A DNA stretch of 64,000 nt. It comes from Oscillospiraceae bacterium. Lineage in GTDB: Bacteria > Bacillota > Clostridia > Oscillospirales > Oscillospiraceae. The notes under the pieces were generated by a model, which had not been told where the DNA came from, ran no database searches, and worked only from the letters and a program-made list of their open reading frames with translations. The position numbers and the translations under genes were made by a program. Positions within the stretch are counted from its first letter, which is position 1. Every line of letters begins with the position of its first letter. Of this stretch, positions 40,757-55,691 are shown piece by piece. The DNA is taken from assembly GCA_015067615.1 (NCBI GenBank), contig SVMD01000004.1, positions 93,908 to 157,907 on the forward strand, in the 5' to 3' direction.

Positions 40757-40847
40757 TTCACAAGTATCCCAAGAAGCCCTTCCTCCGGATTGCCGTCTGA
40801 AAGGAAATCTGAAACGCTGTCAGACCTTTCTGTCCGGCATAAAAAGA

Positions 40848-40874
40848 AATCCCCGGCTTTGGCCGGGGATTTTT
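40848..40874. terminator. Bidirectional terminator
   Basis: AAATCCCCGGC-ttt-GGCCGGGGATTTTTT. Confidence 0.8.
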
Positions 40875-41341
40875 TACGTTCTCAGGGTTGCCCGGAGGCG
40901 GTTGGGCTTGCACAGCAGGTCCAGGGCGTCGTCGATGGAGGTGACCACCACGTCGCAGTGGCTCAGCAGCGCACCGCAGCAGCCCTCCTTGCCCATGACG
41001 CAGATGGACAGGTCCGCCGCGTCGCTCATCTGGATGTCATTAAAGCCGTTTCCGATGGTCACCACGCCGCCGGAGAGCTTTCTAGCTTCCTGGGCTTTGA
41101 TTTCGCCCACCTGGGTGGTGGGGAAGGTCAGCACCTGCAGGGGCAGTCCCGCGCAGCGCTGGGCGGCGGTGCCGTGAGTATCGGCGGTGATGACGTAGAT
41201 GGAAAGGTCCTTGCTTAAGCTTTCCAGCCGGGGCCGGATGGACTCGATGATGGCGCCGTCCTCGGCGATGGTGCCGTTGTAGTCCAGGATCAGATGACTT
41301 AAAGTCATTTCCTCCCGGCCGGGAATGTTGATTTTCAGCAT
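40874..41341 (-). CDS. Small HAD-family hydrolase (soluble P-type-ATPase-like)
   Basis: LILDYNGTIAEDG (motif I DxNGT), VITADTHGTA, VVTIGNGFNDIQMSDAADLSICVMGKEG. Confidence 0.8.
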   Translation of the reverse strand: MLKINIPGREEMTLSHLILDYNGTIAEDGAIIESIRPRLESLSKDLSIYVITADTHGTAAQRCAGLPLQVLTFPTTQVGEIKAQEARKLSGGVVTIGNGFNDIQMSDAADLSICVMGKEGCCGALLSHCDVVVTSIDDALDLLCKPNRLRATLRT

Positions 41342-41351
41342 ATTTCCTCCC

Positions 41352-42101
41352 TCAGGCGTAGACGCCCTGTAAATAGTCTTTGGTTTCCTGACGCTGGGGA
41401 TTGTTAAAAAGTTCCTCGGTGGTATTCTGCTCCCAGATTTCCCCGTTCAGCATGAAGATGCAGTTATCCGCAATCCGCCGGGCCTGGAACAGGTTATGGG
41501 TGACGATGACGATGGTGTATGTTTCCTTCAGCTTCAGCAGCAGTTCCTCAATGGTCTGGGTGCTTTTCACATCCAGGGCGGAGCAGGGCTCGTCCAGCAG
41601 CAGGATCTCAGGATTAGCGGTCAATGCCCGGGCGATGCACAGCCGCTGCTGCTGACCGCCGGAGAGCTTCAGGGCGCTTTTGTTCAGCTCGTCCTTCACT
41701 TCCTCCCAAAGGCCCGTGACCTCCAGGTTTTCCCGGACGATTTTGTCCAGCTTCTGTCTGCCCCGGACGCCGTAGTACAGCGGCGCGTAGGTCATGTTCT
41801 TGTAGATGGACATGGGAAAGGGGGTGGGCGTCTGGAACACCATGCCCACCTTCCGGCGCAGCTCCTCGGCAGGAATGGTGTGGATATCCTTTCCGTTTAT
41901 GTGGATGCTGCCTTGTATGTCCGCGTCGGTCTCCAGCTCCAGCATCCGGTTGATAGCTTTTAAGAGGGTGGATTTGCCGCAGCCGGAGGGACCGATGATA
42001 GCCGTGATCTGCCCCGCCGGAATGGCGGCGTTGATACCGGACAGGACGGTTTTCTTTTCGTAGGCTGCTCCAAAATCGTGGAGCGTAATGGCGTTGCTCA
42101 T
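41352..42101 (-). CDS. pstB: Phosphate-type ABC transporter ATP-binding protein
   Basis: IIGPSGCGKSTLLKAINRMLELETDADIQGSIHINGKDI, VGMVFQTPTPFPMSIYKNMTYAP, LSGGQQQRLCIARAL; start at 42101 after an RBS. Confidence 0.88.
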   Translation of the reverse strand: MSNAITLHDFGAAYEKKTVLSGINAAIPAGQITAIIGPSGCGKSTLLKAINRMLELETDADIQGSIHINGKDIHTIPAEELRRKVGMVFQTPTPFPMSIYKNMTYAPLYYGVRGRQKLDKIVRENLEVTGLWEEVKDELNKSALKLSGGQQQRLCIARALTANPEILLLDEPCSALDVKSTQTIEELLLKLKETYTIVIVTHNLFQARRIADNCIFMLNGEIWEQNTTEELFNNPQRQETKDYLQGVYA

Positions 42102-42922
42102 TTCTTTCTCCTCCATGCGAACCAGGTGGCCAGGGTGTTGGTGATGAGGACCACGATCATCATCACGAAGGCGGTGCCGTAGGCATTCTCCGCCGAGGTG
42201 CCTTGGGTCAGCAGCATATACAGGTGGTACGGCAGGGCCATGGCAGGCTTCATCACGTCCTTGGGCACCTTGGACATGATCACGGCGCCGGTGAAGATCA
42301 GCGGCGCGCAAGCGCCCATGGCGTAGCAGCCGCCCAAAATCACGCCGGAAACCAGCTGAGGCAGGCACCGGGGGATCACAATGCGGCGGATGGTATAGGC
42401 CCGGGAGGCACCCATGGCGTAGGAGGCCTTCACCAGAGCGGGGTCCACCTCCCGCAGGGCCTTCTCCGCCCGGACCTGGATGAAGGGCAGGATCATGATG
42501 CCCTGGGTGATGCCGCCGGCCAGAACGCACTTGCCCCAGCCCAGGGCATGAACCAGCAGGCTGTAGCCAAACAGACCCATGACGATGGAGGGGACACCGG
42601 CCATACACTGCATGACCATGGCAATGCCCTGGGCCAGCCGGTCATGCTTGCAGTAGTAGACCTGGTAGATGGCGGTGGCGATGCCCAGGACCGTTGCGAA
42701 CAGGCAGGCGATGCCGGTATACCAGGCGGAGCCCACGATGGCGGGCAGGATGCCGCCCTCGGTGCCGATGATCAGGCCCTTGGGCACCTCCGTCAGGAAT
42801 TCCCAGGTAATGGCCCCGGCGCCCTTGACGAAGATCCAGGCAAAGAGGAAGAAGATGATGCCGAAGGTCAGACAGCAGGCGGAAACCGCCCAGATCTTAA
42901 TAAGAAATGTCTTGATTTTCAT
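42098..42922 (-). CDS. pstA: Phosphate-type ABC transporter permease PstA
   Basis: LTEVPKGLIIGTEGGILPAIVGSAW, VKASYAMGASRAYTIRRIVIPRCLPQLVSGVILG; 4-bp overlap with pstB and pstC. Confidence 0.88.
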   Translation of the reverse strand: MKIKTFLIKIWAVSACCLTFGIIFFLFAWIFVKGAGAITWEFLTEVPKGLIIGTEGGILPAIVGSAWYTGIACLFATVLGIATAIYQVYYCKHDRLAQGIAMVMQCMAGVPSIVMGLFGYSLLVHALGWGKCVLAGGITQGIMILPFIQVRAEKALREVDPALVKASYAMGASRAYTIRRIVIPRCLPQLVSGVILGGCYAMGACAPLIFTGAVIMSKVPKDVMKPAMALPYHLYMLLTQGTSAENAYGTAFVMMIVVLITNTLATWFAWRRKK

Positions 42923-43797
42923 ACCCAGCCGCCTCCTTTCAGCTTCCGCTTCAGGGCCTCGAAGCCTAAATTGATGGCGAACAGCAGGATCATCAGCACA
43001 AATCCCGCGGTGTACAGGGCGCTGTAGTGGGTGGAGCCCACCACGGCAATGCCCATTTCCATGGCGATGAGGGCGGAGATGGTCTCGCCCTTGCCCAGAA
43101 GGGTGGGTACGCCGATGGCATTGCCCATGACCATCATGACGGCCATGGTCTCGCCCATGGCCCGGCCGGTGGCCAGGGCCATGCTGATCAGGATGCCCCG
43201 GAGGGAAGCGGGCAGCACCATCTGCCCGGCCATGTACCATTTGGACACGCCCATAGCGTGGGAGGCGGCACGGTAACGGTTGCAGATGCGCACCATGGTG
43301 TCGCAGCAGGAGGAGATCATGTAGGGCAGGATCATGACGGACAGGACGATGCCGCCTGCCAGCACCGATTCTCCCGTGGCCATGCCGCATGTTTCGAAGA
43401 ATTTCACCACGATGTACAGTCCCACGAAGCCGTAGACCACGGAAGGGATGCTGGCCAGCAGGTCGATGTAGGGCATCACCAGGGTCCGCTGCCGCTCCGT
43501 GGCGGCGCAGGCCAGGTAGAGCGCGCAGCCCACGCCCACGATCAGGGCAAAGAACACCGCCAGGGCGGAAACGTACAGGGTGGAGAGGATCATATTCCGG
43601 AAGCCGAAGCTGGGGGCGTCGGAATAGATGATGGGCCGCCAGGAGTCCCCCAGCAGCAGCGCCTTCAGCCCCACCTCCCGGATGGCAGGCAGGCTCTCCC
43701 GGAAGATAAAGAAGATCAAAAAGGCCAGAAGCAGCACCGTAATGAGGGTCAGGGCTCCCAAAAGGAGCTGAATCAGCCGATCCTCCGCTTTTCGCAC
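42919..43797 (-). CDS. pstC: Phosphate-type ABC transporter permease PstC
   Basis: LLASIPSVVYGFVGLYIVVKFFE, MGVSKWYMAGQMVLPASLRGILISMALATGRAMGETMAVMMVMGN. Confidence 0.88.
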   Translation of the reverse strand: MRKAEDRLIQLLLGALTLITVLLLAFLIFFIFRESLPAIREVGLKALLLGDSWRPIIYSDAPSFGFRNMILSTLYVSALAVFFALIVGVGCALYLACAATERQRTLVMPYIDLLASIPSVVYGFVGLYIVVKFFETCGMATGESVLAGGIVLSVMILPYMISSCCDTMVRICNRYRAASHAMGVSKWYMAGQMVLPASLRGILISMALATGRAMGETMAVMMVMGNAIGVPTLLGKGETISALIAMEMGIAVVGSTHYSALYTAGFVLMILLFAINLGFEALKRKLKGGGWV

Positions 43798-43837: not shown

Positions 43838-43875
43838 AAAAGGCTGCCATGCCGTCAAGACATGGCAGCCAAATC
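43838..43875 (-). terminator. Hairpin between pstS-like and pstC
   Basis: GGCTGCCATG-ccgtcaaga-CATGGCAGCC. Confidence 0.5.
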
Positions 43876-43885
43876 GGCGGATAAA

Positions 43886-45556
43886 TTAGTAAGCGGGGAT
43901 GTAGCCGTTCTCGATAACGATGGCACGGCCGGTGTCGGAGAAGATGTAGTCCACGAAGGCCTTCTCAGCGGCATCCAGCTCCCGGTTGATCACGAACAGA
44001 ACGGGGCGCTGGATCTTGTAGCTGCCGTTCAGGATGTTCTCTTCGCTGGGCTCCACGCCGTCCACCTTGAAGGCGTACAGGCCGTCCTGGTTCTGGTTGT
44101 AGACACCGTAGCCGGCGTAGCCGATGGCGTACTCATTCTCCATGATCTTGGCAGCCAGAGCACCCATGGAGGGAGTCTGGATGGCGTTCTCGGAGATGGG
44201 AGTGCCCTGCATCACGTTCTTTTCGAAGACCTCGGCGGCGCCGCCGGACAGGTCACGGATGACAACGACGATCTCCTTGTGCTCCAGGGAGGCGTCCAGC
44301 TCGTCCCAGTAGCCGATCTCGCCGGAGAAGATCTTGCGGATGGTGTCGGTGTCCAGATCCTCGATCAGAGCGCAGATGGGGTTATTCTTGTTGACGGAGA
44401 TGGTCAGAGCATCGGAGGCGACCATGAACTCGGTGTAGCCGGCGCCCAGGGAGTCCTTCTCGGAATCCTTCACGGCACGGGCCAGCATGCCAAAGTCGGC
44501 AGTGCCGTCGATGACGCTCTTGGGGCCGTCGCCGGAGCCGCCGGAGGTGACGGCGATGTCGATCTCCTCAGCGGGGAAAGCGGGGTTGACCTTGTCCCAG
44601 GTGCCGTACTCAGCCTGGTAGGCAACGCCGATGGAGGCGATGACGGGAGCCAGGGTGGAGGAGCCGGCAAAGTGGATCTGGGGGTCGATCTCACCCACAG
44701 GAGCGGGCTCGATGGTGTCGGGGTAGGTCTCGGACCAGGCGGTGAAGCCGCCCTCCAGGGTGTAGACCTTGCTCATGTCGTAGCCCAGAGCGGACAGCAC
44801 ATTGGTGGTAGCCTGGGCATAGCGCTTGCCGGAGTAGCAGATGACAACGATGTTCTTATCCAGATCACGGGTGGCAACCTGCATGGTGGCAACACCGGCA
44901 TTGAAGTCGCCTTCCTTGGCGGCGTCCATGTCGAAGCCCTTGGCGCCGGGGATGTGGGCGGTCTCGTAGTCGGCGGCCTTACGGACGTCGAAGAACACAT
45001 AGCCCTCGTCGTTCAGCACAGCCAGAGCGTCGGCGGGGGTGATGTACTGCATGGCCACGTCCTCAGCGGGGGCCACGATCTCGGTAGAGACCTCCACCTT
45101 GTCGGGGTAGGTCTCGGTCCAGGCAGTGTAGCCGCCCTCCAGGGTGTACACCTTGGTCATGTCGTAACCCAAAGCAGCCAGCACATTGGTGGTGGCCTGA
45201 GCGTAGCGCTTGCCGGAGTAGCAGATGATGACGATGTTCTTGTCCAGATCCTGGGTGGCGGTCTTCATGGTAGCCACGCCGGCGGCGAAGTCGCCTTCCT
45301 TGGCGGCGTCCATATCGTGACCCTCAGCACCGGGGATGTGGGAGGTCTGGTGATCGGCGGCCTTACGGACGTCGAAGAAGATGTAGCTGTCGTCCTCCAG
45401 AACGGCCAGGGCGTCAGCGACAGAGATGTACTGCATGGCCACATCTTCGGCGGGAGCAGTGACATCCACAGGATTCTCAGCGGGAGCCTTGTTGCAGCCG
45501 GCGAAGACGGGCAGGACCATCAGCACGCACAGCAGCAGAGCAATGAACTTTTTCAT
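43886..45556 (-). CDS. Lipoprotein fusion: two tandem rhodanese domains + PstS-type phosphate-binding domain
   Basis: Lipobox LPVFAGCNK; two copies of …FFDVRKAADxxTxHIPGAxGxDMDAAKEGDF…IVxICYSGKRYAQATTNVL…YTLEGGxTAWxETYPD; then IHFAGSSTLAPVIASIG…VTSGGSGDGPKSVIDGTADFGMLAR…VIRDLSGGAAEVF. Confidence 0.9.
   Translation of the reverse strand: MKKFIALLLCVLMVLPVFAGCNKAPAENPVDVTAPAEDVAMQYISVADALAVLEDDSYIFFDVRKAADHQTSHIPGAEGHDMDAAKEGDFAAGVATMKTATQDLDKNIVIICYSGKRYAQATTNVLAALGYDMTKVYTLEGGYTAWTETYPDKVEVSTEIVAPAEDVAMQYITPADALAVLNDEGYVFFDVRKAADYETAHIPGAKGFDMDAAKEGDFNAGVATMQVATRDLDKNIVVICYSGKRYAQATTNVLSALGYDMSKVYTLEGGFTAWSETYPDTIEPAPVGEIDPQIHFAGSSTLAPVIASIGVAYQAEYGTWDKVNPAFPAEEIDIAVTSGGSGDGPKSVIDGTADFGMLARAVKDSEKDSLGAGYTEFMVASDALTISVNKNNPICALIEDLDTDTIRKIFSGEIGYWDELDASLEHKEIVVVIRDLSGGAAEVFEKNVMQGTPISENAIQTPSMGALAAKIMENEYAIGYAGYGVYNQNQDGLYAFKVDGVEPSEENILNGSYKIQRPVLFVINRELDAAEKAFVDYIFSDTGRAIVIENGYIPAY
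44745..45450 (-). repeat. Tandem duplication of the rhodanese-encoding segment
   Basis: Shared DNA such as cagcacattggtggt(a/g)gcctg(g/a)gc(a/g)tagcgcttgccggagtagcagatga at about 44797 and 45180. Confidence 0.75.
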
Positions 45557-45695
45557 GTCTTTCCTCCATAAATGATAATTTAAGCCATTTTTCATAGCTT
45601 TGACCATGGTAGCACCCCTTTGCTTTTCTTGTCAACGAAATCGGCCTTATCATCGCAAATCAAGAATATACCGCCTTTTTATCGGTTTTTTCGGT

Positions 45696-45724
45696 TTGAC
45701 ATTTTCTGGCTCTTTCGGGACAAT
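45696..45724 (+). promoter_or_regulatory. Sigma-A-type promoter of the TVP38 operon
   Basis: TTGACA-17 bp-GACAAT, followed by AAGGAGG at 45744-45750. Confidence 0.6.
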
Positions 45725-45758
45725 ATTTTATAATATATTTTCCAAGGAGGGATCGGAT

Positions 45759-46427
45759 ATCAGGGATTCCTTAAAAAAGAAGCTGCTGACCGGGATTGTC
45801 CTTGCCGTATTTGTCCTGCTGAGCTGGTACGCGGCCACTGTCGTGACGCCGGAACAGCTGCAACGGGCGCTGGAAGCCCTGGGTCCCCTGGCAGCAGCGG
45901 GCTATATCGGCGCGTTTACCATCCTGCCTGCCTTTTTCTTCCCGGTGGCAGTGCTGGCCCTGGCCGGAGGACTGCTGTTCGAGCTGTTTTGGGGCAGCAT
46001 TTATACCTTTATCGGCGCGATCCTCAACTGCGCCCTGATGTTTCTGCTGGCCAGGACTCTGGGCCGCAGGCAGGTTCAGCAGCTGGTGCGCAAAAAGCTG
46101 CCTGTCCAATGGCAAAAACGTCTGGAGGGTCTGGGCGGAAAAGAGGGTGCACTGCTGCTTGTCATTCTGCGTCTGATCCCGGCGGTGCCCTACAATCTCA
46201 TTAACTACGCCTTCGGCCTGACGGAAATGAAGCTATCCACCTATCTGCTGTTTTCCGCCGTCGGCATCATCCCCGGTACGTTGGCCTTCATCAACATCGG
46301 CGACAAGGCCCTCTCCCCCGGGTCCCCGGATTTCTGGCTCGCTGTCGGCCTGCTGGTTGCGCTGCTGGCTGTCACCGCCCTGCTGGGCAAAAAATGTTTC
46401 CCAAAGGAGAAAGATCATGAACAATAA
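45759..46427 (+). CDS. TVP38/TMEM64 (DedA/SNARE-associated-like) membrane protein
   Basis: AFTILPAFFFPVAVLALAGGLLFELFWGSIYTFIGAILNCALMFLLARTLGRR, LLLVILRLIPAVPYNLINYAFGLTEMKLSTYLLFSAVGIIPGTLAFINIG. The track start (45600) is upstream of the promoter; probable start is a non-canonical ATC at 45759 after the RBS. Confidence 0.8.
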   Translation: MRDSLKKKLLTGIVLAVFVLLSWYAATVVTPEQLQRALEALGPLAAAGYIGAFTILPAFFFPVAVLALAGGLLFELFWGSIYTFIGAILNCALMFLLARTLGRRQVQQLVRKKLPVQWQKRLEGLGGKEGALLLVILRLIPAVPYNLINYAFGLTEMKLSTYLLFSAVGIIPGTLAFINIGDKALSPGSPDFWLAVGLLVALLAVTALLGKKCFPKEKDHEQ

Positions 46428-47127
46428 GAAAACTGTCCGTAAATACAGCCGCCTGCTGATCCTGCTCTGCGTTGCTGTGCTGCTGATCGTCTATCTGGCC
46501 GTTCCCGGCGTCAACAGCGCCGTGACCGAGGCGGTGGCGGTGCTGGGCTCTGCCAACCTGGATAAGGTGGCCGCCTATATCCGCTCCTTCGGCGGCTGGG
46601 CCATGGCCTTCTCCTTTGCGCTGATGGTCTTTTCCTCTCTCATCGCCCCCCTGCCCGCCTTTATGATCACCCTCTCCAACGCCGCTATCTTCGGCTGGTG
46701 GCAGGGCGCCATCCTCTCCTGGTCCAGCGCCATGGTGGGCGCCGCCCTGTGCTTCGGCATCAGCCGGGCCCTGGGCCGCGACGTGGTGGAAAAGTTCGCC
46801 GGAAAGGGCGCTCTGGCTTCCGTGGAGGGCTACTTTGAAAAATACGGCACCCGGACCATCCTGATCTGCCGGCTGCTGCCCTTCGTGTCCTTCGACGCGG
46901 TGAGCTATTTTGCAGGTCTGACCCCCATGGGCTTTATCCCCTTCTTCATCGCCACCGGCATCGGCCAGACCCCCGCCACCATCGTCTATTCCTATGTGGG
47001 CGGCATGCTCACCGGCGGTGCCAAATTCCTGATGATCGGTCTGCTGTGCCTGTTCTCCCTGGCGATCCTGGCCTCCATCATCAAGCAGATCTATACCGAC
47101 CACCAGAAGAGGAAAGCCAATGTCTAA
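46417..47127 (+). CDS. Second TVP38/TMEM64-family membrane protein
   Basis: MVFSSLIAPLPAFMITLSNAAIFGWWQGAILSWSSAMVGAALCFGISRALGRD, RTILICRLLPFVSFDAVSYFAGLTPMGFIPFFIATGIGQTPATIVYSYVG; start MNNKKTVRKYSRLL at 46417. Confidence 0.85.
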   Translation: MNNKKTVRKYSRLLILLCVAVLLIVYLAVPGVNSAVTEAVAVLGSANLDKVAAYIRSFGGWAMAFSFALMVFSSLIAPLPAFMITLSNAAIFGWWQGAILSWSSAMVGAALCFGISRALGRDVVEKFAGKGALASVEGYFEKYGTRTILICRLLPFVSFDAVSYFAGLTPMGFIPFFIATGIGQTPATIVYSYVGGMLTGGAKFLMIGLLCLFSLAILASIIKQIYTDHQKRKANV

Positions 47128-47884
47128 GCGGGGTAACATGGTGGTGCGGATCCACCAGGCGGTTTCCTTCCATGCTTTCATGACCCGGATCCCCAGGACG
47201 GAGGCGGTATTCTGGCCCGGCTGCGCCCTGATGACGCTGGACCCGGCAATTCTGAACAGAACTCTGGAAGTGCTGAAACGGGCTGAGCCGGGGATCCAAA
47301 TGGCTGCGGCCTGCTGCGGCAATCCCACAGCCAGCCTGTTCCCGGAAGCACTGAATCAGCGGAAGCAGAAGCTGCTGACGCTGCTTGAAAGCAAAGGTGT
47401 AAAGCGGATCTACACCGCCTGTCCCAACTGCACCTTGCAGCTGCGAAAGTTTGGTCTGGAGGTTATTCCCATCTGGCAGGTTTTGGCGGAATGCCTCACT
47501 GCTGACGATCTTTCAGCCCTCAGCGGCAGCTACGTCTGGCACGATCCCTGCCCCACCCGAAACGATCATTTACAGCAGGAAGCGGTACGGAAGATTCTTG
47601 CCCTTCGTGGCTGCGACTGCACCGAGCCCATCCACACCGGCTGCAAAACCCTCTGCTGCGGCAACCGGAAGATGCTTCACTGCACCAATCCGGAAGCCAG
47701 CCGGAAAATCCGGGAGAAGCGGCTGGCGGAATTTCCGGAGGACCGGACCATTGCCAGCTCCTGCGAGGGCTGCCTGTCCGCTTTCCGGGGCGCAGGCCGG
47801 GATACGGCCCACCTGCTGGAAATCCTCTTCGGAAAAAGCAAATCCCGGGGCTGGGGCAACCGGATCAAAAACACCTGGAAATAA
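47120..47884 (+). CDS. CCG-domain (heterodisulfide reductase B/GlpC-like) Fe-S/thiol-disulfide protein
   Basis: Cys motifs ACCGNP, CPNC, HDPCP, CCGNRK, SSCEGC; about 8-bp overlap with the upstream TVP38 gene. Confidence 0.78.
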   Translation: MSKRGNMVVRIHQAVSFHAFMTRIPRTEAVFWPGCALMTLDPAILNRTLEVLKRAEPGIQMAAACCGNPTASLFPEALNQRKQKLLTLLESKGVKRIYTACPNCTLQLRKFGLEVIPIWQVLAECLTADDLSALSGSYVWHDPCPTRNDHLQQEAVRKILALRGCDCTEPIHTGCKTLCCGNRKMLHCTNPEASRKIREKRLAEFPEDRTIASSCEGCLSAFRGAGRDTAHLLEILFGKSKSRGWGNRIKNTWK

Positions 47885-48134: not shown

Positions 48135-48803
48135 TCACCGGATATCCCGGTATCTGCGGGCGATCTCCCGGATATCCACGCCGCTGCGGTAGAGGCAGCG
48201 GAGATAAAACATCTGCCACATGGTGATCAGGGGGCAGCGCTTTTCATAGCGCCGGCCGGAGGTGATGATGGTTCCGGGCAGCTGGCAGATGGGGATTCCC
48301 TTCATCCGCCGGGAAAACTCGTAGTCCTCCATAATGGGCAGGTCCGGGAAGCCGCCCTTTTCCCCGAACAGCGATTTGGTGACCCAGATGCCCTGATCGC
48401 CGAAGGCAATGCCTTTTCTGGCCCGGCGGTTGGACAGATAGGTGTTGCAGCCCATGAAAGGCCCCTGATAGTCGAAGCCGATATGAAAGCATCCCCACCG
48501 GGCACCGGTTTCCACAGCGGCGGAAATCTGGCAGTGGGCCTCCACAGGGATCCGACTGTCGCAGTGGACAAACCACAGCACATCGGCGGAAGCCTGTTTC
48601 GCGGCAAAATTCATCTGATTGGCCCGGCCTTTGGGACACTTCAAAACCGGGTAGCGGCTGCCGATTTTGGCAAGGGTGTCGTCGGTGCTGCCGCCGTCGG
48701 CAAAGAGGATCTCCCAGTCCCCGGGCAGGGCATCCAGCTGACGCAGCATCGCTTCGATGGTGCTGCTCTCATTATAAATAGGGATGATCAGGGAAATCTT
48801 CAT
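48135..48803 (-). CDS. Family-2 glycosyltransferase, TIGR04283-like (rSAM/selenodomain-associated transferase 2)
   Basis: ISLIIPIYNESSTIEAML…ILFADGGSTDDT…GRANQMNFAAK…GDQGIWVTKSLFGEKGGFPDLPIMEDYEFSRRMK…TSGRRYEKR. Confidence 0.82.
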   Translation of the reverse strand: MKISLIIPIYNESSTIEAMLRQLDALPGDWEILFADGGSTDDTLAKIGSRYPVLKCPKGRANQMNFAAKQASADVLWFVHCDSRIPVEAHCQISAAVETGARWGCFHIGFDYQGPFMGCNTYLSNRRARKGIAFGDQGIWVTKSLFGEKGGFPDLPIMEDYEFSRRMKGIPICQLPGTIITSGRRYEKRCPLITMWQMFYLRCLYRSGVDIREIARRYRDIR

Positions 48804-49798
48804 GCCAGGAAGTCCTTTCTGACGTAGTTTTCCAGGATATTCTCCAGGAAGGCGGGCTCTAAGTAGGCCTTCAGCTTATGAAAGGTGTCGGAGTTGGTCA
48901 GCTGCCGTCCCGGCTGGCAGTACTCCCGATAGGCCATAGCGCACCAGGTGACGCCCCGGAGGCAGGTGACCGTGAAGTACAGGGGCAGCCGTGCAGGCAG
49001 CGTGGAGCAATCCATCCGATCCCCCACAGCAGCCACATAGTCCGCCGCAAACTGCTTCACCTGCTCCGGCGTTAAGATCACGTCGGTTTTCCAGAAGGTG
49101 GTGGTGGGGGCCAGGAAATGGCCCAGGTCCTGGGCAGGCTCTGAAATCAGGGGCTTCTCCCAGTCCACCAGGTAGCTCTGTCCGCCCTCGTTGATCAGAA
49201 AATTGCCGGAATTCAGCTCCGTGTTCACCATGCAGGCCGGGGCATCGGAGGGCTCTGACAGAGGCAGCTTTCCGATTTCCGCCACCAGGGTTTTCAGCAG
49301 GGAAATAACCTGGGGATCGGCAGCCTCCCAGTCATAGTAGTGCTGCACCATTTCCAGGCACTCCTGATAGATGGCCAGGGCCGGAGCCTCCGGGCGGACA
49401 AGGCGGGAGGAAGCCGGAATGGGCGTACTGTGGATATCCGCCAGAATCTGGGCGGCGATGGACATATCCGTTTCGTAGCGCAGGGCACGGCCGGGAAGGT
49501 ATTCCATCACCAGCATACCCTGCTCCGGGAAACAGACAATAGGCTTCGGGGTCCTTCCGCTGACGGCCAGGCCCTCCAGCGCGGAAAATTCGTAGCTGAT
49601 CTGATCCTCCAGATGCATCTGGCTGCCGGTATTGATCCGCAGCACCAGCTTTTTACTGGAAATCGGATGGGTGAATACGTAATTTAAATTGTATTCCCCC
49701 TGGCCCAGGACGGAAAAATCCAGCGTGGTTCCCTCCGGAATGCCAAGAGGAGCCAGAAAGGCTTCGCTGTTCAGAAAGGGCAGATATTGGGTGATCAC
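48800..49798 (-). CDS. APH/choline-kinase-like phosphotransferase
   Basis: LGQGEYNLNYVFTHPISSKKLVLRINTGSQMHL, LVMEYLPGRALRYE, CMVNTELNSGNFLINEGGQSYLVDWEKPLISEPAQDLGHFL. Confidence 0.82.
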   Translation of the reverse strand: MITQYLPFLNSEAFLAPLGIPEGTTLDFSVLGQGEYNLNYVFTHPISSKKLVLRINTGSQMHLEDQISYEFSALEGLAVSGRTPKPIVCFPEQGMLVMEYLPGRALRYETDMSIAAQILADIHSTPIPASSRLVRPEAPALAIYQECLEMVQHYYDWEAADPQVISLLKTLVAEIGKLPLSEPSDAPACMVNTELNSGNFLINEGGQSYLVDWEKPLISEPAQDLGHFLAPTTTFWKTDVILTPEQVKQFAADYVAAVGDRMDCSTLPARLPLYFTVTCLRGVTWCAMAYREYCQPGRQLTNSDTFHKLKAYLEPAFLENILENYVRKDFLA

Positions 49799-50448
49799 AG
49801 GGCTGTTCCCTCCTCTTTAAATTCCGCCAGGCACCGGGCGGTGGCAGTGTCCTGCGCCGGGCGCAGGTTTTTCAGGTCCTCCGGCGTATCCACATCGGCA
49901 CAGGGCAACGCCGGAGCAACGGTCAATCCGGCAGCCCGGATGGCCGCCAGCGTATTTTCGTACACGGTAGCGCCGCCGTAATTGGTCACGTGAAAAGGCG
50001 CTTCATGGGCCTGCTTCATGCCGATGAGGTAATAGCCCCCATCCGGGGTGGCACCGATGGCGATATCCGCATCCGCCAGGGCCTCAAAGCCCCTTTCCAG
50101 ATGGGCAGCGCGCATTTGGGGCAGGTCCGTGCCGGTGAGTACCACCCGGTCATAGCCCAGGGCCAGCACTTTGGCAATGGCATTGTACATTTTTTCTCCC
50201 AGGTCCGCCCCCTCCTGGGGGAAGTACCCTGCGGCATAGGGAAATACCGCCGCCAGATTCACCCATTCCGGGTCCGGGGTGTAGGCCACGAACAGGTCCG
50301 CATCCACCGAAGGGTAGATCTTTGCCAGGTCCCGCAGGAAGGCCCAGTGAAGCCGGGCGCACTGCTCCGGTGTCAAAAGTCCCAGCAGCCGGGTCTTGGT
50401 CAAGCCGGGCCTGGGCACCCGGGTAAAGCAGATGACAGCCTGTTTCAT
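49795..50448 (-). CDS. TIGR04282-like / DUF2064 transferase (rSAM/selenodomain-associated transferase 1)
   Basis: AVICFTRVPRPGLTKTRLLGLLTPEQCARLHWAFLRD, VLTGTDLPQM, DADIAIGATPDGGYYLIGM, CADVDTPEDL; start at 50448. Confidence 0.85.
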   Translation of the reverse strand: MKQAVICFTRVPRPGLTKTRLLGLLTPEQCARLHWAFLRDLAKIYPSVDADLFVAYTPDPEWVNLAAVFPYAAGYFPQEGADLGEKMYNAIAKVLALGYDRVVLTGTDLPQMRAAHLERGFEALADADIAIGATPDGGYYLIGMKQAHEAPFHVTNYGGATVYENTLAAIRAAGLTVAPALPCADVDTPEDLKNLRPAQDTATARCLAEFKEEGTAL

Positions 50449-51317
50449 GGCATTTCCTCCCGGCAGAACCGCTCCCAGCCACGATACATCTCTTCCCGGT
50501 ACCGAACCATGTCCGTTACCCGGGGCAGATTCAGCAGACTGGTGTCCGGCGCTTCCTCCGTCACTCCCAGCCATCCGCTGTGCATACCCTTTTCCGTCAC
50601 ATAGCAGTGGGCAAAATGGTCCTCAAACAGCTCCGGGTGCAGCAGATACACCGCCGCCACCACATCCCAGCAGTAGGAAATGGCATTGCCGTAGCGCTTT
50701 TTCTGGTCATCGAACCGGTAGCCGCATTTTTCGGCAATGTAGCTGCCGCCCATTTTCCGGATAAATTCCTCCTTGGGCAAATACGAAGGGCCCAGGGTGT
50801 TGTTGCCGGTGAGAATGGAGATGTTTTGTCCCCGATTCAGGACCCACGCAGCCGCCTTGGGATTGACGGAGAAATTCAGCTCGTCCAGATGTTTTCCATG
50901 GTACAGTACCGGCGCGGTGTAGCCGCCCATGAGGACGATCTCCCTGACCTTGGAGAACAGGGTGTTATCCAGCAGATACGCCCCATACAGGTTCGTCAGG
51001 GAGCCGATGGCTACCAGGGATATCTCACCGGGGTGGGCGTTGACGGTATCCGCGATAAACCGGGCCGCATCGCTGACCGGGTCCTCCCCCCGGTCGGCGC
51101 CGGGCAGCAGGGGGATATCGGTCCTGCGGATCTCTTCCAGAAACTGCTTCGTGGAGGCATATACCTCCCGGGCGCTGCCGTTGGCGAAGGTGCAGGTGAT
51201 GCCCAGCACTTTGCATCTGTCCGGGTTTCCCAGCAGATACAGCAGCGCCAGCACGTCATCCATGGGCTTGCCCGGCAGGCCAACGGTGCTGTCGCAGTCA
51301 AAAATGATATGTTTCAT
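50445..51317 (-). CDS. Inosine-uridine-preferring nucleoside hydrolase family protein
   Basis: IIFDCDSTVGLPGKPMDDVLALLYLLGNP, VLGITCTFANG, IVLMGGYTAPV, ELNFSVNPKAAAWVLN. Confidence 0.82.
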   Translation of the reverse strand: MKHIIFDCDSTVGLPGKPMDDVLALLYLLGNPDRCKVLGITCTFANGSAREVYASTKQFLEEIRRTDIPLLPGADRGEDPVSDAARFIADTVNAHPGEISLVAIGSLTNLYGAYLLDNTLFSKVREIVLMGGYTAPVLYHGKHLDELNFSVNPKAAAWVLNRGQNISILTGNNTLGPSYLPKEEFIRKMGGSYIAEKCGYRFDDQKKRYGNAISYCWDVVAAVYLLHPELFEDHFAHCYVTEKGMHSGWLGVTEEAPDTSLLNLPRVTDMVRYREEMYRGWERFCREEMP

Positions 51318-51506: not shown

Positions 51507-52727
51507 ATGAAAAGAATGATCGCGTTTGTGCTTGCCTGTCTGATGGTGCTGCCCCTCTTTGGCTGCGGCAGCAAAGCCGAAGAAATCGACCTGACTAACG
51601 CCTCCTGGGAGGAAATCCTGGATACCGCCAGGGGTACCACCGTCATCTTCTACGGCTGGGGCGGCGACGAGAACCGCAACAACTGGCTGAACACCACCGT
51701 GGCCCAATACGTTAAGGAAAACTATGACATTACCCTGGAAGTGGTGGGCATGAATATTGACGATATCCTGGCCAAGCTCTCCGGCGAGAAGCAGGCCTGT
51801 GCCAGCAGCGGCAGTATCGACATGATCTGGATCAACGGCGAGAATTTCTACTCCGCCAAGGAAAACGGCCTGCTCTGGGGCCCCTTTACGGACAAGCTTC
51901 CCAACATGGCCGCCTACATCGATCTGGAGGATCCGGAAACCCTGAACGATTTCTGTATGCCCATCGAAGGCTTCGAGGCTCCCTATGCCAAGGCCCAGAT
52001 GGTCATGTACGCCGACACCGCTGTGACTCCCGACCTGCCCGGCTCCTCGGAAGAGCTGATGGCATTCTGCCAGGCCAACCCCGGCAAGGTCACCTACCCC
52101 GCCCTGCCCGATTTCACCGGCAGCGCCTTCGTGCGCAACATCATTTACGAAATCTGCGGCTGGGAGCAGTTCCAGACCATGGCTGCGGACTACGACACCG
52201 TCAAGGCTGCCATTGAGCCCGCGCTGGAATACCTGCGGCAGCTGAACCCCTACCTGTGGAACGAGGGCAAAACCTTTCCCGATTCCTCCACCACCCTGGA
52301 TGCCATGTTCTCCGACGGTGAGCTGGTGATGAACATGAGCTACAGCCCCTTCACCGTGGCCAGCGGCATCGCCGACGGCATCTACACCGAAACCACCCAG
52401 ACCTTTGTCTTTGATAATGGCACCATCGGCAATACCAACTACATGGCCATCGCCTACAATTCCCCCAACAAGGCCGGTGCCATGGTGGTGATCAATGCCA
52501 TCATTTCCGGCCAGATCCAGCTGACCCAGTACGCCCAGCTCCGGGAGCTGCCCGTTGTGGCAACCGGCAAGCTCAGCGCGGAGGAGCTGGCAGCCTTTGA
52601 GTCCGTGGACCTGGGCAAGGGCATTCTGTCCCAGGCGGAGCTCTTGAGCCACCGGCTGCCGGAAATGCCCGCCAGCCTGGTGCCCATTATTGAGCAGATC
52701 TGGCTGAACGAAGTGGTGGGTAAATAA
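51507..52727 (+). CDS. YnjB-like ABC transporter substrate-binding lipoprotein
   Basis: Lipobox LPLFGCGSK; WEEILDTARGTTVIFYGWGGDENRNNWLN, SIDMIWINGENFYSAKENGLLWGPF, VPTEG-like MPIEGFEAPYAKAQMVMYAD. Confidence 0.8.
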   Translation: MKRMIAFVLACLMVLPLFGCGSKAEEIDLTNASWEEILDTARGTTVIFYGWGGDENRNNWLNTTVAQYVKENYDITLEVVGMNIDDILAKLSGEKQACASSGSIDMIWINGENFYSAKENGLLWGPFTDKLPNMAAYIDLEDPETLNDFCMPIEGFEAPYAKAQMVMYADTAVTPDLPGSSEELMAFCQANPGKVTYPALPDFTGSAFVRNIIYEICGWEQFQTMAADYDTVKAAIEPALEYLRQLNPYLWNEGKTFPDSSTTLDAMFSDGELVMNMSYSPFTVASGIADGIYTETTQTFVFDNGTIGNTNYMAIAYNSPNKAGAMVVINAIISGQIQLTQYAQLRELPVVATGKLSAEELAAFESVDLGKGILSQAELLSHRLPEMPASLVPIIEQIWLNEVVGK

Positions 52728-52737
52728 GAACCACAGG

Positions 52738-52764
52738 CGGCACGGCAGAGGCCGTGCCGCTTTC
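52738..52764 (+). terminator. Hairpin terminator downstream of the ynjB-like gene
   Basis: GCGGCACGGC-agag-GCCGTGCCGC followed by TTTCGT. Confidence 0.6.
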
Positions 52765-52781
52765 GTCTGTTGGCAATGGAA

Positions 52782-52942
52782 ATTATCCCAAAGGCTCCCC
52801 TTGAGGGGAGCTGGCACGGCGTAGCCGTGACTGAGGGGTGAAAGGTTAGCGTTATCAAGGGTTTGGGGATTTCACCCCTCCGGCCCTACGGGCCACCTCC
52901 CCGAAGGGGAGGGCATCGCGGCTTACGCCGCTAAACGATAAT
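52782..52942. mobile_element. MITE-like palindromic repeat element B (about 160 bp), inside the YnjBCD-like operon
   Basis: Ends ATTATC…GATAAT; same GCTAAACGAT right terminus as element A (52930-52939); internal GGCTCCCCTTGAGGGGAGC, CACGGCGTAGCCGTG, CTCCCCGAAGGGGAG. Confidence 0.72.
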
Positions 52943-52975
52943 ATACCGCACACCCCTATCAGAAAGGAGGCTATT

Positions 52976-53845
52976 ATGCGAAAACAGAGAACGGTTTTTC
53001 TGCTGTTGCTGCCGTTTCTTGCCGTCACAGCGCTGGTCCTTGTTTCGGTCTGGAATGTGCTGGTCCAGAGCTTCGGCTATATTCCTGCCTTTGGTCTGAC
53101 ACAGCCTACGCTGTCGTACTACAAGGCGGTGTTCACCAATCCGGATTTTCTCAGTGCCCTGAGGGTCAGCCTGAAAATCGCCCTGTGGTCAGCGGCGCTG
53201 GCCTGCATTCTGGGCGTTGCCCTTTCCATGGCCCTGATCCGGCTGAAGAAAACCAGGGGCAGAGCGGTCTATCTGGTGCGCTTCCCCATTCTGATCCCCC
53301 ACGCAGTGGTGGCTGTGTTCATGATCCAGCTTTTCAGCCAGACCGGTCTCCTTGCCCGGGCGGGCTATGCCCTGGGCCTGGTTGAGGACTATACCCGGTT
53401 CCCCCAGCTGCTCTATACCCCCGGCTACGGCGGTACCATCGCCGCCTACCTGTGGAAGGAGATCCCCTTCGTAGCCTATTTTGTCCTGGCCTTTATGGGC
53501 TCCATTTCCGACAGTCTGGGCCAGGCTGCGGAAAACTTAGGGGCTTCCTCTGCCCGGAGCTTCTGGGAGGTGACGCTGCCGCTGAGCATCCCGGTGATCG
53601 CCCGGGCCTTTCTGATCATCTTTATCTTCGCCTTCGGCGGCTATGAGCTGCCGCTGCTTCTGGGTGCTACAATGCCCAAGGCCCTGCCGGTTCAGGCCTA
53701 CCTTGCCTACATGAACCCGGACCTGCGGCAGCGGCCCCTGGCCATGGCTATGAACGGCGTGATTCTGCTGCTGAGCATCCTGATGTCCGCCGCCTATTGG
53801 TATCTGGTCCGCCGGGCCAGCCGGAGAATGGAGGGTAGTGCATGA
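52976..53845 (+). CDS. ABC transporter permease (YnjC N-half/PotB-like)
   Basis: Multi-TM; AAENLGASSARSFWEVTLPLSIPVIARAFLIIFIFAFGGYELPLLLG. Confidence 0.82.
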   Translation: MRKQRTVFLLLLPFLAVTALVLVSVWNVLVQSFGYIPAFGLTQPTLSYYKAVFTNPDFLSALRVSLKIALWSAALACILGVALSMALIRLKKTRGRAVYLVRFPILIPHAVVAVFMIQLFSQTGLLARAGYALGLVEDYTRFPQLLYTPGYGGTIAAYLWKEIPFVAYFVLAFMGSISDSLGQAAENLGASSARSFWEVTLPLSIPVIARAFLIIFIFAFGGYELPLLLGATMPKALPVQAYLAYMNPDLRQRPLAMAMNGVILLLSILMSAAYWYLVRRASRRMEGSA

Positions 53846-54639
53846 GAAAATTCCGGTTCTGGAAGCTGTTTCTGGCTGTGACGGCTTTCTGCATTCTCCT
53901 GCCCGCCGCCCAGCTGCTGCTTTGGAGCATCGCGGAGCGGTGGCCCTGGCCGGGGCTGCTGCCGGAAAGCTGCAGCCTGCGCACCGTGAAGGAGCTGCTC
54001 TTCGGCTCGGCGAAGCTGCCTCAGCTGCTGCTGAGCAGCATCACCCTGGGACTGACCGTGGCTGCCCTGGGAACTCTGGCGGGCATCCTCACCGCAAGAG
54101 CCACGGAATTGTACGATTTCCCCGGCAAGGGCCTTGTGACCTTCGGTGCCTTTCTGCCCCTGCTGGTACCGGGCACGGTTTTTGCCATGGGTATTCAGAT
54201 CACCCTGATCCGGCTGGGGCTTTCCGACACCCTGGCCGGTGTGGTGATCGTCCACCTCATTGCCGCGGTGCCCTACTGCATCACCATCATGACCGACGTG
54301 ACCCGGGCCGTGGGAAACAAGCTGGAGCAGCAGGCCATGGTACTGGGGGCCAGCCCCCTTCGGGCCTTTTTTCAGGGCAGCTTCCCTCAGCTGCTGCCGG
54401 GGATCCTGTCCTCCATGAGCATGGGCTTTGTGCTGTCCTACAGCCAGTATTTTACCACCCTGATGGCCGGTGGCGGCCGGGTAAAGACCCTGGCACTGGT
54501 GCTGATTCCCTACATCCAGAGCGGCGACCGAGCCCTGGCCAGCGTATACAGCGTGACCTTCGCGGGCTCCGCGCTGCTGGTATTTTTCCTCTTTGAAGGG
54601 CTGATCCATTTCATCGAAAAGCGAGGTGACGGGGCATGA
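53842..54639 (+). CDS. ABC transporter permease (YnjC C-half/PotC-like)
   Basis: Multi-TM; EQQAMVLGASPLRAFFQGSFPQLLPGILSSMSMGFVLSYSQYFTTLMAGGG; 4-bp overlaps on both sides. Confidence 0.82.
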   Translation: MRKFRFWKLFLAVTAFCILLPAAQLLLWSIAERWPWPGLLPESCSLRTVKELLFGSAKLPQLLLSSITLGLTVAALGTLAGILTARATELYDFPGKGLVTFGAFLPLLVPGTVFAMGIQITLIRLGLSDTLAGVVIVHLIAAVPYCITIMTDVTRAVGNKLEQQAMVLGASPLRAFFQGSFPQLLPGILSSMSMGFVLSYSQYFTTLMAGGGRVKTLALVLIPYIQSGDRALASVYSVTFAGSALLVFFLFEGLIHFIEKRGDGA

Positions 54640-55691
54640 AGCTGAAAATTGAAAATCTCACCGCCGGGTATGACACCGGCGTTGTGCTGGAAAATCTCTC
54701 ATTGAGCCTTGCGGCCGGGGAATTTCTCTCCTTGTTGGGTCCCTCCGGCTGCGGCAAGTCCACACTGATGAAAACCATCGCCGGAATCCTCCCGGCCCAG
54801 TCCGGCCGGATCACGCTGGATGGGGTGGATATCACCCACCTACCCATCCATAAGCGGGGCACCGTTGTGGTTTTTCAGGATATGCGGCTGTTTCCCCATC
54901 TGAGTGTGGCGGAAAATGTGGCCTTTCCCCTGAAAATGCAGGGCGTTCCCAAAACCGAACGGCTGCGGCAGGCGCAGGCGCTTCTGGAAAAGGTGCAGAT
55001 GTCCGGTTACGGCAGCCGCAAGCCCGCCGCCCTCTCCGGCGGACAGCAGCAACGGATCGCCCTGGCCCGGGCCCTGGCGGCCCAGCCGAAGCTGCTTCTG
55101 CTGGACGAACCCTTCTCGGCCCTGGATGAAAACCTCCGGGAAGATATGCGCAATCTGGTTCTGTCGCTGCAACAGGAGTTTGACATGACCGTGATTCTGG
55201 TGACCCACGACCGGGAGGAGGCCCTGAGCATGTCCCACCGGGTGGCCATGATGTTCGGCGGCCGCATCGTTCAGACCGATACGCCCCGGCAGGTTTACGG
55301 TGCCCCCGCCACCCGGCAGGTGGCCGATTACTTCGGCGGCTGCGTCTACCTTTCCGGGCAGGTCAGACAGGGCATTTTCTCAGCCTCTGGCATCTCCTGC
55401 GCCGCACAGGTTCCGGATGGGGACTACGACCTTATGCTGCGGCCTGAAGCCCTGGACACGGACTGCCCCGGGAACTACCGGCTGACCGTGGAAAGCGTCA
55501 GCTTCCGGGGCACCGATACCCTGGTGACCTTCCGGGCCCAGGACGGAACCCTCTGGAAAAAGCCGTATCCTGCCTGTATCACCCTCCAGCCGGGCGATGC
55601 GGTTCAGGCCGGAGTGTACCTTGCTGATCCGGTTCTGTTTGCGCAGACAAATTCCACGGAATCACCGCTCGACTATTCGGCGACTTTATGA
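54636..55691 (+). CDS. ABC transporter ATP-binding protein (YnjD/PotA-like) with C-terminal TOBE-like domain
   Basis: LLGPSGCGKSTLMKTIAG, ALSGGQQQRIALARALAAQPKLLLLDEPFSALD, VTHDREEALSMS. Confidence 0.88.
   Translation: MKLKIENLTAGYDTGVVLENLSLSLAAGEFLSLLGPSGCGKSTLMKTIAGILPAQSGRITLDGVDITHLPIHKRGTVVVFQDMRLFPHLSVAENVAFPLKMQGVPKTERLRQAQALLEKVQMSGYGSRKPAALSGGQQQRIALARALAAQPKLLLLDEPFSALDENLREDMRNLVLSLQQEFDMTVILVTHDREEALSMSHRVAMMFGGRIVQTDTPRQVYGAPATRQVADYFGGCVYLSGQVRQGIFSASGISCAAQVPDGDYDLMLRPEALDTDCPGNYRLTVESVSFRGTDTLVTFRAQDGTLWKKPYPACITLQPGDAVQAGVYLADPVLFAQTNSTESPLDYSATL

Follow-up and report, generated by a model that had tools for sequence, protein, structure and literature searches.

Systems related to the locus

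PstSCAB phosphate importers consist of a lipoprotein receptor (family TIGR02136; structure 4gd5 of Clostridium perfringens), two permeases and one ATPase. Yeast and plant phosphate transporters also import selenite, and those of E. coli are implicated in the same activity (PMC9312934). According to reviews from 2022 (PMC9312934) and 2026 (PMC13188914), prokaryotes have no identified high-affinity transport system that is specific for selenium. In Methanococcus maripaludis, a protein annotated as PstS was found to be upregulated upon selenium depletion, and no clear phenotype resulted when it was deleted (PMC11097638). YedF, the subunits of 2-hydroxyglutaryl-CoA dehydratase and a transglutaminase-like protein were described as selenium-linked (Lin et al., 2015; PMC5322559). 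As cited in PMC8538045, rhodanese can take selenium from selenite and glutathione in vitro and hold it as a perselenide (Ogasawara, 2001).

The locus described here lies in a 64-kb stretch of DNA from an Oscillospiraceae bacterium of the gut, referred to below as the window. It shares with PstSCAB the fold and lipoprotein nature of the receptor, the set of two permeases and one ATPase, the gene order and the anion-binding Arg. Unlike PstSCAB, it has GGA in place of GSGT and Leu-Ala-Arg in place of Ser-Ser-Arg, its receptor belongs to a separate clade (the GGA clade), phoU is missing, and a HAD-like gene and rhodanese domains have been added. The single-domain rhodanese GlpE (1gmx) matches the rhodanese domains of the locus in its fold and in having a Cys loop of six residues. 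However, GlpE is a free cytosolic protein, whereas the rhodanese found here is duplicated, fused to a binding protein, and predicted to be exported and lipid-anchored.

Three selenium-related systems offer further comparisons. In the ext cluster of Geobacter, the rhodanese ExtH is likewise encoded next to a system for the entry and reduction of selenite and tellurite, but it is not fused to a binding protein and its partners are an outer-membrane porin and cytochromes (PMC5877670). A rhodanese from a related locus (L067) scored 39.9 bits on the model NF040901, far below the cut-off of 200. The YedE/YedF system shows the same co-occurrence with SelD, and YedF adjoins the GGA-clade importer in three loci; YedE, however, is a ten-helix membrane protein and no ABC importer (PMC5322559). 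The Sao system (SaoX/SaoB/SaoP) also ties ABC importer parts to selenium biology, although its transporter parts contain selenocysteine and its permease family is different (PMC13188914). A search of open-licence full texts found nothing relevant on rhodanese-binding-protein fusions, a Pst-type selenium importer or the GGA clade.

Architecture of the fusion protein

The original prediction, a PstS domain fused to two rhodanese domains in one lipoprotein, was confirmed by the open reading frame, Pfam matches and lipobox at 43886-45556. Both repeats were located where they had been placed, between the lipobox and the PBP_like_2 domain that runs to the C-terminal end, with their CYSGKR loops intact. 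The gene and its parts are as follows:

43886..45556, minus strand: gene for the rhodanese-rhodanese-PstS lipoprotein, 556 aa
45494..45556, minus strand: signal peptide with lipobox, ending at Cys21 (MKKFIALLLCVLMVLPVFAGC); lipidation predicted from the sequence
45092..45442, minus strand: rhodanese domain 1, loop CYSGKR, Cys112 (Pfam, repeat comparison, GlpE alignment)
44702..45058, minus strand: rhodanese domain 2, loop CYSGKR, Cys240 (Pfam, repeat comparison, GlpE alignment)
43889..44698, minus strand: PstS-type (PBP_like_2) domain of the GGA clade, loops GSSTL, SGGSGDG, DFGMLAR and RDLSGGA

The start codon is the ATG at 45556, with a GGAGGA site just 5' of it; the longer open reading frame from 45607 has no GGAGGA-type site before its start. 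Pfam identified Rhodanese in two stretches (E=2.6e-34) and PBP_like_2 (E=4.6e-28). Both rhodanese domains score above the Pfam cut-off and are 81% identical to each other, and in both the CYSGKR loop aligns with the Cys loop of GlpE. Apart from the lipid anchor and the two catalytic residues, the mature protein contains one more Cys, in the PstS part, and no others. The AlphaFold model has a mean pLDDT of 88.9 and consists of three folded domains; only in the linker at residues 19-28 does pLDDT fall below 50. With the fold and intact catalytic Cys loop of an active rhodanese, the protein is predicted to have sulfurtransferase activity. The best fold matches of the PstS part are phosphate receptors such as 4gd5, and no specific NCBIfam model claims the protein, the best match being the general PstS family TIGR02136 at 192.1 bits, under the cut-off of 206.6.

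The operon and its surroundings

The predicted pstS-pstC-pstA-pstB order was borne out by family scores (TIGR02138, TIGR00974 and TIGR00972). Beyond that prediction, the operon was found to contain a fifth, HAD-like gene and two hairpins with T runs:

43842..43870, minus strand: hairpin of 12 pairs followed by a T run, between pstS and pstC (consensus match only)
42919..43797, minus strand: pstC-like permease (TIGR02138, 233.7 bits, above cut-off)
42098..42925, minus strand: pstA-like permease (TIGR00974, 199.5 bits, above cut-off)
41352..42101, minus strand: pstB-like ATPase (TIGR00972, 334.7 bits, slightly below the cut-off of 343.2)
40874..41341, minus strand: small HAD-like protein, fifth gene of the operon (sub-threshold HAD Pfam matches only)
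40847..40872, minus strand: terminator-like hairpin with T run at the operon end, after the HAD-like gene
45600..46427, plus strand: divergent VTT-domain (TVP38/DedA-type) membrane protein 1 (PF09335, 2.6e-29); true start probably further in
46357..47127, plus strand: VTT-domain membrane protein 2 (PF09335, 1e-23)
47120..47884, plus strand: CCG-domain (cysteine-rich) protein (PF02754, 4.4e-17; NF045663, 122 bits, below the cut-off of 530)
48135..51317, minus strand: block of TIGR04283 glycosyltransferase, APH-type kinase, TIGR04282 and nucleoside hydrolase (same block in L077)
51507..55691, plus strand: YnjBCD-type ABC importer, with binding protein, two permeases and ATPase (NF008633, 434.9 bits)

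The hairpin between pstS and pstC is a possible attenuator that would lower permease expression. The HAD-like gene is retained beside the GGA-clade pst operon in most clade members; in the window its product has DYNGT in place of DxDGT and is above no Pfam or NCBIfam cut-off. Among the open reading frames of the window, no phoU and no PhoB/PhoR were found with the fusion operon, and the genome carries a separate canonical pstSCAB-phoU-phoBR locus on contig C12. An Rfam scan of the window returned one tRNA and no riboswitch.

VTT membrane protein 1 is also kept in L037, L038, L067 and L077, and both L067 and L077 have a homologue of the YnjB-type binding protein in the corresponding neighbourhood. 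The CCG protein most resembles the dicluster part of NF045663. The block at 48135-51317 corresponds to an 'arsenosugar' set in a genome that lacks ArsS.

A distinct clade of PstS proteins with an altered anion pocket

Canonical PstS paralogues from the same genome and from sister genomes contain the loops GSTSM, GTGSGTG, D[IL]G[LM][SA]SR and RExGSGT. In the alignment of the GGA clade, these are replaced by GS[ST][ST][LM], [GA]GSGxG, [DSN]FGM[LVI][AS]R and RD[LIV]xGGA. The third loop mostly begins with DFGM, and its [AS] position is Ala in every clade row except one. A comparison of the oxyanion pocket had been proposed with the original prediction. The pocket aligns without gaps to phosphate-bound 4gd5, and the changed positions correspond to Asp56, Ser139 and Thr141 of E. 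coli PstS, which are established phosphate contacts. The position of Asp56 is Ser in Clostridia receptors and Ala in the clade, and the GSGT phosphate loop is changed to GGA in all intact clade members seen; the fusion protein, with RDLSGGA, thus lacks it as well. The anion-binding Arg is retained. Judged by its pocket residues, the PstS domain of the fusion is probably no ordinary phosphate receptor.

Phylogenetic analysis placed the 47 rows with these features in one monophyletic clade (support 100/100) with a long stem, which spans four phyla: Bacillota, Spirochaetota, Actinomycetota and Thermodesulfobacteriota. Search scores are split in the same way, above 350 bits for sequences with GGA and below 175 bits for those with GSGT, with a gap in between.

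Relatives and spread of the fusion

When 84,980 species genomes were scanned with an alignment of three members, 43 loci were obtained, and 38 of them contain an intact relative with an identity of at least 47%. Two of these, from sheep colon (L039) and water buffalo rectum (L040) and both labelled Oscillospiraceae, have one rhodanese before the PstS domain in the same operon. The fusion is therefore not an assembly artefact, and a chimera was rejected as its origin. In the remaining intact loci of the scan, which form the majority, no rhodanese is fused to PstS, so the fusion is known in three species only. In the tree, the fused sequences and two unfused ones make up a single group of five rows (100/100), which points to a recent and local fusion. 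The closest relatives (L041 and L042), whose PstS domains are 86-87% identical, are without the fusion, from which it follows that the rhodanese is dispensable.

The rhodanese type is itself rare, being present in three of the 251 genomes sampled from the family of the window, all three with SelD. Genome G005, which carries a rhodanese-PstS fusion, has a second copy of this rhodanese joined to a NikA/Opp-type binding protein that heads a dppBCDF-like operon (L035:12539-14410). In L037 and L038, a rhodanese lipoprotein lies beside a VTT pair with no importer nearby; the L038 protein (L038:3868-8366, genome G078) is a twin-rhodanese lipoprotein clustered with VTT, VTT, CCG, AhpD-like TIGR04169, ArsS and TIGR04283. 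A close relative of the window (L077:9956-11535) keeps the whole neighbourhood around a pst operon that lacks the rhodanese and is eroded by internal deletions, which could be a fault of low-coverage assembly.

Co-occurrence with selenium genes

In the scan set of 84,980 genomes, SelD was found above cut-off in 38 of the 40 genomes that hold the clade, against a background of 93 of 393 genomes (24%) in the class (p=1.2e-19). This association is not circular, because sequence, and not selenium genes, served to seed the scan from which the 40 genomes came. The class sample taken alone shows the same pattern, with SelD in 10/10 clade genomes and in 83/383 others (p=3.7e-7). Combining the 40 genomes of the scan with the 10 of the class sample, which have the genome of the window in common, gives 49 clade genomes, and 47 of them contain SelD. 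YedF is above cut-off in 43 of the 49. Of the two genomes that lack SelD, one is among these 43, and the other (L071) has neither protein above cut-off. In the genome of the window, one contig encodes selD, a SirA-like protein, selA, selB and tRNA-Sec, and a second contig encodes yedF; selA and selB were identified by reading the sequence and not by a family search.

The selenium link is strong between families and weak within them. In the class sample, SelD is already common in the families that hold the clade. In the family of the window, the clade occurs in 3 of 251 sampled genomes, all three with SelD, compared with 101/251 overall (p=0.064). Clade genomes labelled Oscillospiraceae have SelD in 8/8 cases against a family background of 98/248 (40%; p=7e-4), a comparison in which the genomes so labelled and the family that was sampled may differ somewhat in extent. 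In the genus of the window, the species itself has both the clade and SelD, and six sister species have neither. The distribution of the clade thus follows SelD, as for a selenium-utilisation gene set, and a function in selenium transport is predicted.

Gene neighbourhoods in relatives

Most clade members are not adjacent to selenium genes. YedF is encoded directly upstream of the GGA-clade pstS in L067, L068 and L072 only, and not in the window; double-cubane reductases are found near the importer in L040, L042, L059, L068 and L072. Among 107 pooled flanking proteins, no other recurrent locus-specific family was found. L067 combines YedF with a transglutaminase-domain protein, and L068 and L072 combine it with a dehydratase-type reductase.

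The most extensive of these neighbourhoods is that of L067, where 14 kb in one direction encode a rhodanese-transglutaminase-rhodanese protein, VTT, VTT, CCG, YnjBCD, Mop, YedF, PstSCAB and HAD. The gene set of the window is nearly the same, except that its rhodanese is part of the PstS protein and that yedF lies at another place in the genome. Rhodanese is therefore tied to the importer twice, as a fusion and as an unfused protein near the importer, and the likeness supports a working link between the two. L105 also has a separate rhodanese protein close to the importer. The large protein that heads L067 (L067:1-2055) has an N-terminal rhodanese part like that of the window, a transglutaminase core and further rhodanese domains.

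Proposed role and alternative explanations

The reading that we prefer, and rate at slightly above an even chance, is that the fusion protein is the surface receptor of a Pst-derived ABC importer for a selenium oxyanion, most likely selenite, with the rhodanese domains acting as carriers of selenium or sulfane sulfur. The PstS-type domain, which has kept the Arg and lost the phosphate-holding Ser, Ser and Thr side chains, would capture the anion and hand it to the PstC/PstA/PstB-like channel. Since phosphate transporters take up selenite (PMC9312934), tuning a phosphate receptor to selenite would be a short step. The two rhodanese domains would sit on the N-terminal tether beside the PstS domain, at the outer face of the membrane, where each could carry selenium or sulfane sulfur on its one catalytic Cys as a perselenide or persulfide. 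Most likely they would trap reduced selenium, such as the thiol-bound selenium formed from selenite and gut thiols or sulfide, prevent its loss, and deliver it to the importer or, alternatively, to the VTT membrane proteins of the divergent genes. The domain architecture, the operon, the altered pocket, the monophyly of the clade, the co-occurrence with selenium genes and the proximity to yedF and double-cubane reductases are observed. The identity of the ligand, its transport, the activity of the rhodanese domains and transfer between the domains are the steps that we infer, and the rhodanese step is the weakest among them.

A broader form of this proposal is more tentative and falls short of an even chance: the GGA clade would be a dedicated high-affinity selenium importer of anaerobes, of which the window holds a form that joins perselenide capture and import in one surface protein. 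Pst-type ABC importers and rhodaneses are known kinds of protein, and the novelty lies in this branch, in its proposed substrate and in the fusion. This PstS branch, almost confined to selenium-using bacteria, is a candidate for the long-missing bacterial selenium importer. Being defined, recognisable by sequence and represented by cultured members, it makes the question directly testable, and the fusion provides a clue to possible handling of selenium at the cell surface.

An unlikely but still sizeable alternative accepts a selenium-linked PstS part and regards the rhodanese as a general surface thiol/sulfane module without a selenium role; its probability overlaps that of the preferred reading, the importer half being common to both. 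The fusion of the same rhodanese to a NikA/Opp-type receptor in G005 favours a general thiol/sulfane function, which it could have, and warns against a strictly selenium-specific one, as does the rhodanese-free majority of the clade; conversely, all three family genomes with this rhodanese type have SelD, and L067 and L105 keep a separate rhodanese near the importer. Ordinary phosphate uptake is distinctly less probable. The operon would then be a second, divergent phosphate importer in which the pocket changes affect affinity only and the rhodanese is an accidental add-on. Although the nearest solved structures are all phosphate-binding PstS proteins and PstC and PstA lie above the phosphate-family cut-offs, both PstS (192 against 206.6) and PstB fall below theirs, the loss of the phosphate-binding Ser/Thr is conserved over four phyla, and tracking with SelD is not expected of a phosphate importer. 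Simple phosphate import, already doubted in the original prediction, is thus disfavoured by the pocket, the phylogenetic profile, the separate pst-pho locus and the absence of phoU from the operon. Slightly less probable again is a sulfur or mixed S/Se anion (thiosulfate, selenosulfate or sulfite) as the ligand, split by the rhodanese at the surface so that PstS takes the remaining oxyanion. Rhodaneses classically act on thiosulfate, the nearest rhodanese of solved structure is the thiosulfate sulfurtransferase GlpE, and sulfite-sensing YeiE domains are among the distant fold matches, though type II binding proteins share this fold in general. However, the importer works without the rhodanese, because most clade members have none, and a plain sulfur anion leaves the link to SelD and YedF unexplained; selenosulfate as the ligand would be a variant of the preferred reading.

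Among the chemistries originally proposed, selenium is strongly favoured by the phylogenetic profile and the neighbourhood, and arsenate is disfavoured. An arsenate importer or receptor could feed an arsenosugar-like pathway of the neighbouring TIGR04283/TIGR04282 transferases and nucleoside hydrolase, which carry the NCBIfam name 'arsenosugar biosynthesis', and the L038 cluster joins the twin-rhodanese lipoprotein with ArsS and TIGR04283. This is very improbable given the distribution of ArsS, which is absent from the genome of the window and above cut-off in only 9 of the 49 clade genomes and not in the other 40. Moreover, the window and L077 are the only clade loci in which the TIGR04282/TIGR04283 pair adjoins the importer. 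Least credible of all is import of molybdate or tungstate, with the SelD correlation arising only through selenium-containing formate dehydrogenase. A Mop-domain gene does lie near the operon in L067 and L068, but MoaA is present in just 21-23 of the 49 clade genomes and, at E<=1e-30, has no match in the genome of the window or in its closest clade relatives (G151-G154), and molybdate/tungstate import was rejected as the main reading on this distribution. With MoaA in 21 and ArsS in 9 of the 49 clade genomes, neither molybdenum or tungsten nor arsenic accounts for the pattern.

Variation among clade members

In Brachyspira, the clade is present in 7 of the 26 species of the genus, and three genomes (G157, G158 and G732) have two GGA-clade PstS copies each. 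In L104 and L106, a threonine-dehydratase-like PLP enzyme is encoded directly before the GGA-clade pstS.
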